From Streptomyces brevispora (lineage in GTDB: Bacteria > Actinomycetota > Actinomycetes > Streptomycetales > Streptomycetaceae), in contig NZ_VIWW01000003.1 in the NCBI RefSeq assembly GCF_007829885.1, forward strand, positions 248,001-312,000: a DNA stretch of 64,000 nt. Direction: 5' to 3'. Below, piece by piece: positions 28,348 to 31,355 of the stretch (its first letter is position 1; every line of letters begins with the position of its first letter). Both the position numbers and the translations under genes were made by a program. The notes under the pieces are model-generated. The model saw nothing but the letters and a program-made list of their open reading frames with translations, was not told where the DNA came from and ran no database searches.

Positions 28348-29202
28348 GTGCCCCACGACGACCGAGTTCCCGGCCCCGACCGCGCGGACAGCTCCGGCCG
28401 GGCCGGTCTGCGCGCCGACTGCGGGAACTGCTTCGGGCTGTGCTGCGTCGCGCTGACCCTGACCCGGTCCGCGGACTTCGCCATCAACAAGGATGCCGGT
28501 AAACCCTGCCGCAACCTTCAGGACGACTTCCGCTGCGGCATCCACACCCGGCTGCGCACCGAGGGCTTTCCGGGCTGCACCGTGTACGACTGCTTCGGCG
28601 CCGGCCAGAAGGTCTCCGCGGAGACCTTCGGCGGACGGGACTGGCGCAGGGCCCCGGAGAGTGCCCAGCAGATGTTCCAGGTCTTCCCGGTCATGCGGCA
28701 GCTCCACGAACTGCTCTGGTATCTGACGGAGGCGGCCGCCCTGGTACCGGCCCGCCCCCTTCACGGCGACATCGGCCGCACCCTAGACGCGACCGAACGC
28801 CTCACCCGCCTCGACGCGGACGCCTTCGCGGACCTGGACGTCTCGGCTCACCGGGACGAGGTCGCCGCCCTGCTCTCGCGCACCAGCGAACTCGTACGCG
28901 CCACCGCTCCTCGCAAGAAGAAGCGCAACCACCGCGGCGCCGACCTCATCGGCGCCCGTCTCAAGGGCGCGGATCTGCGCGGTGCCGACCTGCGCGGCGC
29001 CTACCTCATCGCGGCGGATCTCACCGGCGCCGATCTCCGGCTGGCCGACCTCATCGGCGCCGACTTCCGGGACGCGGAACTGTCCGGCGCCGACCTGACC
29101 GGAGCACTCTTCCTGACGCAGTCACAGCTGAACGCCGCCCGGGGGAACGCGGCCACCCGGCTCCCTCCGTCGCTCAGCCGCCCCGAGCACTGGGAGAGTT
29201 GA
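28348..29202 (+). CDS. Cys-cluster (YkgJ-like) and pentapeptide-repeat fusion protein
   Basis: A 284-residue protein with two parts. Near the N-terminus a CxxCxxxCC cluster (Cys25, 28, 32, 33) with four more cysteines (54, 63, 77, 82) resembles the zinc- or iron-chelating YkgJ/UPF0153 family. A helical middle follows, then about 11 pentapeptide repeats (residues 198-255, patterns such as GADLRGADLRGAYL and GADLTGADL) that would fold as a right-handed quadrilateral beta-helix. GTG 28348 follows GGAGG at ten bases. The gene is between divergent or convergent single genes, so context gives no role. Pentapeptide proteins can mimic DNA and bind gyrase, but this one has an added metal site; its function is not known. 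Confidence 0.85.
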   Translation: MPHDDRVPGPDRADSSGRAGLRADCGNCFGLCCVALTLTRSADFAINKDAGKPCRNLQDDFRCGIHTRLRTEGFPGCTVYDCFGAGQKVSAETFGGRDWRRAPESAQQMFQVFPVMRQLHELLWYLTEAAALVPARPLHGDIGRTLDATERLTRLDADAFADLDVSAHRDEVAALLSRTSELVRATAPRKKKRNHRGADLIGARLKGADLRGADLRGAYLIAADLTGADLRLADLIGADFRDAELSGADLTGALFLTQSQLNAARGNAATRLPPSLSRPEHWES

Positions 29203-29216
29203 GGGCGCCCGAACGA

Positions 29217-29741
29217 TTACGGTCGGGGCGCATCCCCGTCCAGCGGGGCCTCCAGTGCCGCCTTCAGCCGCTGGAGAGTGGTCCTGATGTTGCCGCGTTG
29301 GAACTCGGCGAACGTGTGCCCCCGGGTGTCCACCCGGCCGAAGGCGTCGGCCAGGAAGTCCGGCTGGCCGCGGCGGTCGTCGGTCCAGGTCTCGCTTACC
29401 CGTGTGCCGCCGTCCACGGCCTCGAAGCGGTACTCCCAAGTGGCGATCGCGCCGGGCAGCCGGGGCCGCCGGGCACCGATGGCGTGAACCCGGAAGGCGA
29501 ACCGCTCGCCCGGATCGGCCGCGGTCACCGTGCACCGTGTCGTCCAGCGCATCCTTCCGCGCTTGTTGCGGCCCTCGAAAACCATGCCGACATACGCGTC
29601 CCGGCGCTCCCCGAGCACCTTCGCGCCCCGGTTCTCCGGACTCCAGCGACCCATCGCGGTCGGGTCGCCGATCTGCTCGTACACGGCCGACGGGGCGGCG
29701 AGAACCACGATGCTGTCCGACACGGACATGGTGCGGGGCAT
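29217..29741 (-). CDS. SRPBCC (START-like) family protein
   Basis: A 174-residue polyketide-cyclase/dehydrase-like protein. SDSIVVLAAPSAVYEQIGDP, MGRWSPENRGAKVLGE, GMVFEGRNKRGRMRWTTRCT and WEYRFEAVDGGTRVSETWTD give the usual order of a SRPBCC hydrophobic-pocket fold. ATG 29741 follows GGAAG at seven bases; an ATG at 29729 is a shorter option. Members bind lipids or small hydrophobic molecules, or act as cyclases in antibiotic pathways; there is no such cluster here. It is convergent with the pentapeptide gene, with 14 bases between the stops. Confidence 0.85.
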   Translation of the reverse strand: MPRTMSVSDSIVVLAAPSAVYEQIGDPTAMGRWSPENRGAKVLGERRDAYVGMVFEGRNKRGRMRWTTRCTVTAADPGERFAFRVHAIGARRPRLPGAIATWEYRFEAVDGGTRVSETWTDDRRGQPDFLADAFGRVDTRGHTFAEFQRGNIRTTLQRLKAALEAPLDGDAPRP

Positions 29742-29990
29742 GAAGCACTTCCGATCCGCGGCCGGCTCCGGCAACCACCGGGCGTCGGGCCGACCGCACG
29801 GACGGCCGGCGGGCTCCCGGGCCCCACACCCTACTCACGGGTCACACGGATCGTGGCGGCAGTAACCCATGGACCGGACCGGTGGCCCCGCAACCGGCGC
29901 CCGGTATCGAGAACGCTTCGGGCCCGTGGTTCGTTGCACAGGGTGACGTATCTGGAACACCTTCGACAACCGGACCGAGGAGCCCCGCAC

Positions 29991-31355
29991 ATGTCCAGCC
30001 GCACCGACCCCAGCCGTACCGACCCGGGCAGCACCGACGCGAGCCGCACCCGCCTGATCGAACGGCTCATGGAGCAGTTCCCGCACGTGCCGCGGGAGGC
30101 CGTCATCAAGGAGGACCTGCTGCGCGGCGGCCTGGCCTTCGACGAGTCCGCGCTCAGTGACAACGAGGACGGTGACGTCAAGCCGAAGTCGTACTTCATC
30201 TTCTCCTTCGACCACGGCACCCTGCCCGAGCTGGGGGCCGCAGCCCTGCGCCGGCCGCCGGAGGAGATCGTCCTCACCGGCGGTCCGTACGAGCTGCGGC
30301 GCACCGTCGTCTCCGTGCGGGTCAACCCGGCGTCTCCCTACCGGGTCGCGGCCGACGCCGACGGCGTGCTCGGGCTCTACCTCGACGGCAGGTGGATCTC
30401 CGACGTCGGACTCCCCCCGATGCCGGACTACTACCGGCACAAGCTGGAGAACGGCAAGTCCGTGATGGAGGTCGCGCCCACCATCCAGTGGGGCTACCTC
30501 GTCTATCTGACGGTCTTCCGCGTATGCCAGTACTTCGGCGCGAAGGAGGAGTGCCAGTACTGTGACATCAACCACAACTGGCGCCAGCACAAGGCCGCGG
30601 GCCGCCCGTACACCGGAGTGAAGCCGGTGGAGGAGGTCCTTGAGGCACTGGCCATCATCGACCGGTACGACACCGCGAAGACCTCCACGGCCTACACCCT
30701 CACCGGTGGTGCCATCACCTCCCACATCGGCGGCCGGGACGAGGCCGACTTCTACGGCCGGTACGCGAAGGCCATCGAGGAGCGCTTCCCCGGCCGCTGG
30801 ATCGGCAAGGTCGTCGCCCAGGCCCTTCCCAAGGCCGATGTGCAGCGGTTCCACGACTACGGTGTGCAGATCTACCACCCGAACTACGAGGTGTGGGACC
30901 CCCGGCTGTTCGAGCTGTACTGCCCCGGCAAGGAGCGCTACGTCGGCCGCGACGAATGGCACCGCCGCATCCTGGACTCCGCCGAGGTCTTCGGCGCCCG
31001 CAATGTCATTCCCAACTTCGTCGCTGGCGTGGAGATGGCTGAGCCGTTCGGCTTCACCACGGTGAAGGAGGCCATCGAATCCACCACCGAGGGCCTGCGG
31101 TTCTTCATGTCGCACGGCATCACGCCCCGCTTCACCACCTGGTGCCCCGAGCCCACCACCCCGCTGGGGAAGACCAACCCGGACGGCGCGCCGCTTGAGT
31201 ACCACATCCGATTGCTGGACGCCTACCGCTCGACGATGGAGGAGTACGGGCTCAGCTCGCCCCCCGGCTACGGCCAGCCGGGTCCGGGACGCGCGGTGTT
31301 CTCCGTCAGCTCCTTCATGGACAGCCTGCCGGCCCGTCCCGACGACGAGGGGTAG
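29991..31355 (+). CDS. Radical SAM protein with CX8CX2C cluster
   Basis: A 454-residue protein. A helical first 50 residues (RLIERLMEQFPHVPREAVIK) precede an N-terminal beta domain. The iron-sulfur site is VCQYFGAKEECQYCDINHNW, with Cys179, Cys188 and Cys191, so the spacing is CX8CX2C, not the canonical CX3CX2C. TLTGGAITSHIGGRDEADFY matches the SAM-binding GGEP position, and NFVAGVEMAEPFGFTTV and FTTWCPEPTTPLG are later barrel elements. SAM cleavage to a 5'-deoxyadenosyl radical is expected, but the substrate is unknown. ATG 29991 follows GAGGAG at eight bases. The N-terminus has a short SRTDP repeat. It is monocistronic. Confidence 0.82.
   Translation: MSSRTDPSRTDPGSTDASRTRLIERLMEQFPHVPREAVIKEDLLRGGLAFDESALSDNEDGDVKPKSYFIFSFDHGTLPELGAAALRRPPEEIVLTGGPYELRRTVVSVRVNPASPYRVAADADGVLGLYLDGRWISDVGLPPMPDYYRHKLENGKSVMEVAPTIQWGYLVYLTVFRVCQYFGAKEECQYCDINHNWRQHKAAGRPYTGVKPVEEVLEALAIIDRYDTAKTSTAYTLTGGAITSHIGGRDEADFYGRYAKAIEERFPGRWIGKVVAQALPKADVQRFHDYGVQIYHPNYEVWDPRLFELYCPGKERYVGRDEWHRRILDSAEVFGARNVIPNFVAGVEMAEPFGFTTVKEAIESTTEGLRFFMSHGITPRFTTWCPEPTTPLGKTNPDGAPLEYHIRLLDAYRSTMEEYGLSSPPGYGQPGPGRAVFSVSSFMDSLPARPDDEG

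Follow-up and report, generated by a model that had tools for sequence, protein, structure and literature searches.

Several known radical SAM systems are close to the protein analysed here. LipA, LipS1 and LipS2 have a CX3CX2C motif and a second [4Fe-4S] cluster, and BioB has a [2Fe-2S] one, according to the account in PMC9585515. The same account presents the auxiliary clusters of LipS1 and LipS2 as bound by three cysteines, which were shown by mutation. A further radical SAM gene belongs to the Nit1C cluster, and the description of that cluster in PMC1199592 places it nearest to the biotin-synthase-related COG2516. NCBIfam contains a model for this radical SAM protein (TIGR04043, MSMEG_0568 / Nit1C) and also the model NF045502 (variant_rSAM), which carries no reaction.

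We analysed a 64,000-nucleotide stretch of Streptomyces brevispora DNA, called the window, from a 334,513-base contig of a 7.54-Mb genome in three contigs. It encodes a protein that had been predicted to be a radical SAM protein, and this assignment is borne out by the match to NF045502, by the three cysteines of the motif and by the predicted fold. The match to NF045502 scores 164.5 bits, above the cut-off of 125, and covers residues 39–395. The protein shares with the NF045502 family the three cysteines, which are mostly spaced CX8CX2C, but its score is less than half of the 347–389 bits of the best-scoring relatives, and it lacks their C-terminal cysteines. The score with the Pfam model Radical_SAM (PF04055) is 16.9 bits, under the cut-off of 29.5, and therefore a search of the host genome with that model did not report the gene; among 52 family members, 46 reach E ≤0.01 with the same model, the best being 1.8e-15. 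Of the properties usual in the superfamily, the protein has the three cysteines in the loop past the first barrel strand and, by comparison of the predicted model with the PDB, the radical SAM barrel, and it departs from the usual CX3CX2C spacing. The features of the gene and its product are listed in Table 1.

Table 1. Features of the radical SAM gene and its predicted product, with positions in the window
Feature	Position	Strand	Observation
Radical SAM protein, 454 aa, NF045502 (variant_rSAM) family	29991..31355	+	Intact ORF, ATG to TAG
Cluster loop, residues 177–192, with strand 1 (170–176) before and helix (193–202) after	30519..30566	+	Predicted secondary structure
Cys179, first predicted [4Fe-4S] ligand	30525..30527	+	162/162 rows; aligns with first Cys of the canonical CX3CX2C of L186
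Cys188, second predicted ligand	30552..30554	+	162/162 rows
Cys191, third predicted ligand	30561..30563	+	162/162 rows
G239-G240-A241, closing predicted strand 2, in the place of the GGE(P) SAM motif	30705..30713	+	GGA/GGS in 119/119 close rows
Cys311 in CPGK; also in S1, S4 and one other relative	30921..30923	+	119/119 close, 9/43 distant rows
Cys385, just past predicted strand 6 (380–383), clade-specific	31143..31145	+	119/119 close, 0/43 distant rows

The protein has five cysteines in all (179, 188, 191, 311 and 385), and none precedes residue 179. Therefore, it lacks the N-terminal CX4CX5C of LipA. LipS1 and LipS2 combine CX3CX2C with three auxiliary-cluster cysteines in the account of PMC9585515, whereas the window protein has CX8CX2C and only two cysteines besides. 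It is likewise missing both the CX3CX2C of BioB and a match to the BioB model; the NCBIfam search returned no LipS2, LipA or BioB match, the last at E up to 10. Its likeness to the Nit1C radical SAM protein consists of a weak match to TIGR04043 (25.1 bits, under the cut-off of 303.7) and of the CX8CX2C spacing, which is found in 15 of 17 rows of the Nit1C-like subfamily S3. It differs from that protein in having no tail of the GCxRCxACS type, and no nitrilase-containing cluster was seen among the annotated neighbours in two relatives (L139 and L140) or among the window neighbours, which were read by eye. The original prediction allowed that the family might already be described with a known reaction; the NCBIfam model is the only description that we found, and a search of open-licence literature returned no relevant paper on this family, its spacing or such a Streptomyces enzyme.

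The motif was compared in an alignment of 162 rows from fetched loci, 119 of them with at least 50% identity to the window protein (close rows) and 43 below (distant rows). Five pairs of rows are identical over the core, one of them being the window's own gene taken twice, which leaves 157 distinct sequences (114 close and 43 distant). All three predicted cluster cysteines are kept in every row, a count that is favoured by the tendency of alignment programs to stack cysteines. The predicted CX8CX2C arrangement of Cys179, Cys188 and Cys191 is confirmed by the positions of the cysteines and by this alignment; the spacing occurs in every close row, and together with the conservation of the cysteines this indicates that the motif is not due to chance. 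The reading of the spacing as unusual was correct with respect to the canonical motif, but the spacing is common to a broad family: CX8CX2C is present in 145 of the distinct sequences, CX6 in six, CX5 in three, CX9 in two and CX3 in one. The last is L186, a single case of the canonical CX3CX2C, which has a long and uncertain branch in the tree. Since the loop varies from CX3 to CX9 while the cysteines stay constant, Cys179 most likely corresponds, judging from the aligned sequences, to the leading cysteine of the canonical motif, and L186 lends this the support of one case. In contrast, a HMMER alignment to ThiH puts the first cysteine of ThiH in the loop and not on Cys179, which is against the equivalence. 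On balance, Cys179 is very probably a cluster ligand, as had been predicted. The GGA segment noted in place of GGEP is indeed found where predicted strand 2 ends, the site of the canonical GGE(P), and its second glycine is present in all 162 rows.

An AlphaFold2 model of the window protein, calculated from a 52-row alignment (A2), has a pLDDT of 89.6 and a pTM of 0.89. The model has all three cysteines of the motif in the loop between strand 1 and the following helix, and the loop past the first barrel strand is the usual place of the radical SAM cluster. A Foldseek search against the PDB listed 50 rows headed by MgmA, HydE, LIAS and biotin synthase, and judged from their titles we take all the listed rows to be radical SAM enzymes. 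With VIA-align 2, the best matches were lipoyl synthase (Z 17.7, rmsd 4.1, 246 residues aligned), MqnE (Z 17.1) and HydE (Z 16.2), followed by PylB (Z 15.8), biotin synthase (Z 15.7) and ThiH (Z 15.1). The window protein alone found nothing better than E 0.82 among PDB sequences, whereas the A2 family profile found ThiH (E 4.7e-9), BioB (3.1e-8), PylB (2.9e-5) and also LIAS. Thus, LipA/LIAS and BioB share the fold with the window protein (Z 15.3–17.7), and the group of LipA/LIAS, LipS1/LipS2 and BioB comprises remote matches of the family profile. ThiH, NosL, MqnE, PylB and HydE share the fold as well, ThiH and PylB being also found by the profile, and the identity of these five enzymes to the window protein in structural alignments is about 11–15%.

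The compared sequences strongly support the membership of the family, the three predicted ligands, the predicted fold, the lack of C-terminal cysteines and the lack of a constant partner gene. We propose, with about an even chance of being right, that the protein is a stand-alone, one-cluster radical SAM enzyme that acts on a small metabolite and does not insert sulfur. Cysteines 179, 188 and 191 would hold a single [4Fe-4S] cluster, and SAM would bind to its open iron with the aid of the GG(A/S) strand. One-electron reduction would then produce a 5'-deoxyadenosyl radical. This radical would act by hydrogen abstraction on a small soluble metabolite, and a hydrogen atom may be given back by the clade-specific Cys385, located past strand 6. 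A hydrogen-donating cysteine is used by known radical SAM epimerases, and the role of Cys385 is our guess by analogy with them; its place after strand 6 of the model suggests that it could face the active site. No cysteine occurs past residue 396 in 118 of the 119 close rows, which make up the window clade, and a second, sulfur-donating cluster is therefore unlikely. We infer that the enzyme probably catalyses a rearrangement, epimerisation, dehydrogenation or bond cleavage and not sulfur insertion, and that the substrate is small; the class of the substrate is suggested by the relatives only.

The distant relatives were divided into subfamilies S1–S5, named from the tree and from neighbouring genes read by eye; ten neighbour proteins from three loci were checked with Pfam. 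In S1, a cysteine-synthase-like gene adjoins the radical SAM gene in six of seven loci (L155, L156 and L199–L202; not L154), and methionine-type (O-acetylhomoserine-sulfhydrylase-type) genes are near; MetW and a PLP enzyme were confirmed by Pfam in L155. In S2, a symporter-like gene follows the radical SAM gene in all five loci examined (L158, L159, L161, L169 and L173, with the sixth member, L123, outside this count), and an ATP-sulfurylase-like gene is located just upstream in all three loci with upstream sequence. Pfam confirmed PAPS reductase, TusA, ATP sulfurylase and a sodium:sulfate symporter in L159. S3 has nitrilase-like and acetyltransferase-like neighbours (L152, read by eye), as in the Nit1C cluster. 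In all four S4 loci (L160, L195, L196 and L197), a TPP riboswitch heads a ykoFEDC run that ends with the radical SAM gene, and Ykof, ABC_cobalt (YkoE) and ABC_tran were confirmed by Pfam in L196. The gene context of the relatives is informative, and the reaction is therefore not wholly beyond inference. The original prediction of a gene without partners is supported, and its statement that the reaction could not be guessed from context needs this correction. In two S5 loci (L182 and L184), a conserved protein of about 320–340 residues with the motif RYGDLP[YF]ITPY is encoded directly upstream of the radical SAM gene.

The subfamilies also differ in the cysteines outside the motif. At the position of Cys385, arginine is the commonest residue of the distant rows (34 of 43). 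Cys311 is held by nine distant rows, namely all seven of S1, one of S4 and L141. C-terminal cysteines number two in S1 (7/7 rows), three or four in S3 (16/17) and S5 (9/9), and four in S4 (1/1), and they are absent in all six S2 rows. Such tails, for example GCxRCxACS, would probably ligate a second cluster if they are comparable to the auxiliary cysteines that LipS1 and LipS2 possess. S2 lies among sulfate-assimilation genes yet has no C-terminal cysteines, and the lack of them is therefore compatible with a sulfur-related role.

The window clade is solid in a 58-row tree (support 100/100), from which no firm sister group emerged. Without the long rows L141, L157 and L186, and with L192 and L193 removed too, the window clade joined S4 with a support of 99/89; this grouping is suggestive, as it comes from an unrooted tree with rows dropped. 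S4 shares with the window clade the CX8CX2C spacing, the CPGK segment and an insert that follows the GxxE strand (an insert also present in L157), and differs from it in operon context, in the arginine at the place of Cys385, in the presence of C-terminal cysteines and in an identity of only 27–29%.

These relationships allow other functions to be weighed. The protein might be a thiamine- or pyrimidine-linked salvage enzyme with a substrate of the S4 type, as suggested by the TPP riboswitch and ykoFEDC genes of S4, by the features shared by the two clades and by their grouping once the long rows are removed. The four S4 genomes gave no ThiC match, which also favours salvage; their ThiG search gave only partial matches, which scored 22.5–32.1 bits (best per genome), over the Pfam cut-off, and which we read as other barrel proteins. 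However, the host genome itself gave strong matches to ThiC and ThiG, and the low identity to S4 and the unsettled sister of the window clade with the long rows included weaken the connection. Such salvage is a serious rival in view of S4, although we regard it as quite unlikely. A thiamine operon in this order was considered and rejected, since YkoE occurs in none of 197 genomes and a TPP riboswitch at gathering score is absent from the window and seven other clade loci; both results also speak against the salvage function. Also unlikely is an enzyme of the ThiH, HydG and NosL kind, an amino-acid lyase or dehydrogenase that would yield an imine or nitrile, in keeping with the nitrilase-like genes beside S3. 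Among solved structures, the family profile matches ThiH best, and the fold matches include ThiH, NosL and HydG, but a reaction cannot be read from fold matches, and the annotated neighbours of two relatives include no nitrilase or thiazole gene.

A sulfur-inserting enzyme like BioB or LipS would draw on a second cluster, which Cys311 and Cys385 could in principle hold together with a non-cysteine ligand. The best fold matches include lipoyl synthase and biotin synthase, the LipS2 model is matched by 36 of 52 family members, and S1 and S2 relatives adjoin sulfur genes. We nevertheless consider sulfur insertion very unlikely, since the window protein itself matches none of the LipS2, LipA and BioB models and has just two further cysteines, neither of them C-terminal, where the second clusters of LipS1 and LipS2 take three (PMC9585515, as cited above). 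Least credible is a degenerate, non-catalytic protein kept for binding. It would be in keeping with the Pfam score under the cut-off and with the broken copies of the gene in two genomes described below, and it is opposed by the invariance of the cluster cysteines and other core residues and by the low dN/dS. This ratio is 0.088, 0.113, 0.107, 0.154, 0.142 and 0.172 against six relatives; a seventh, L080, was left out because of a stop within its stretch. The range of 0.09–0.17 and the match in 126 of 197 genomes sampled from the order indicate that the gene is selected.

The one-cluster enzyme without sulfur insertion can be extended to a broader proposal, which we offer as speculation that is rather unlikely to hold in full. 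The window clade would catalyse an unreported reaction, in which a single cluster and Cys385 as hydrogen donor would rearrange or epimerise a free metabolite without a partner gene. The wider family would have specialised separately for methionine/transsulfuration, sulfate-assimilation, nitrile and thiamine-uptake gene sets. The radical SAM kind of the protein and the NF045502 model are already known. With respect to the open-licence literature searched, the orphan clade and the links of subfamilies to gene sets, above all to thiamine uptake, may be new. Bacteria in and around Streptomyces are objects of metabolic research, yet no reaction has been assigned to this strongly conserved gene. Across the wider family, an atypical radical SAM motif is tied to gene sets for sulfur, nitriles and thiamine, and the S4 clade, with its TPP riboswitch and genomes without a ThiC match, provides a concrete and testable substrate hypothesis.

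Among 61 genomes sampled from relatives, 32 have a match to the gene. The best 80 of 587 loci encoding a relative belong to Streptomyces, except for one from Actinacidiphila and three from Actinoplanes (85–86% identity), and the closest named relatives among these 80 are Streptomyces with up to 98% identity. NF045502 has a match in 108 of 396 genomes of the phylum, over the cut-off in 51. Beyond the phylum, it has a match in six of 14 named control genomes, over the cut-off in one, and a family member is encoded on a plasmid of Agrobacterium pusense, where two adjacent radical SAM genes are followed by NUDIX and galE genes (L141:5564-8966). Copies are carried by two further plasmids, one from Streptomyces sp. 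NBC_01324, linear and 173,614 bases long (96.7% identity), and one from strain NBC_00257 (85.1%). A split copy (G027:C1:2783636-2784972) and a remnant (G022:C37:23005-23181) are a sign of gene loss in some lineages. The stand-alone, patchy and sometimes plasmid-borne gene prompted us to consider an anti-phage role, which we rejected: PADLOC gave no match at E up to 1, PHROG gave two rows only, at E 0.25, and no relative was confirmed in viral contigs.

The gene had been predicted to be alone, and the neighbourhoods agree. In 98 anchored loci of the 100 compared (20 of the 100 limited to some 1.5 kb of flanking sequence), no constant partner was found within three genes, and the commonest neighbour family was present in 31 of the 98. 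Members of this family are encoded on the same strand and start 59 to 1016 bases downstream, and a pyridoxamine-oxidase-like gene, read by eye, is next upstream in 15 loci. We take both as local synteny and not as partners; the named loci are those of the closest relatives, which favours synteny. The neighbours are different again in eight loci of a family with 56–58% identity (f3). In the window, the upstream ORF (29217-29774), which is SRPBCC in the annotated relative L139, is on the opposite strand, and downstream no further gene is predicted before 31777, where the next one starts.

A promoter-like stretch is shared by relatives, with GGCATACCG and ATACCGTGA each present in 40 of 82 upstream regions, in line with separate transcription of the radical SAM gene. 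Scans for sigma-70 promoters and terminators gave nothing. The window's upstream region is without that stretch and has another one, common to its nearest relatives. The sequence GGTTCGTTGCACAG is located at window positions 29928-29941, about 50 bases ahead of the start codon, and is kept in close relatives, for example L009, L010 and L013; many other relatives have GGGGGCATACCGTGAGG in its place. Farther upstream, window positions 28348-29202 encode a pentapeptide-repeat protein, named after the annotated relative L139, with a cysteine-rich N-terminal part (CGNCFGLCC), and related genes are near the radical SAM gene in 17 loci.
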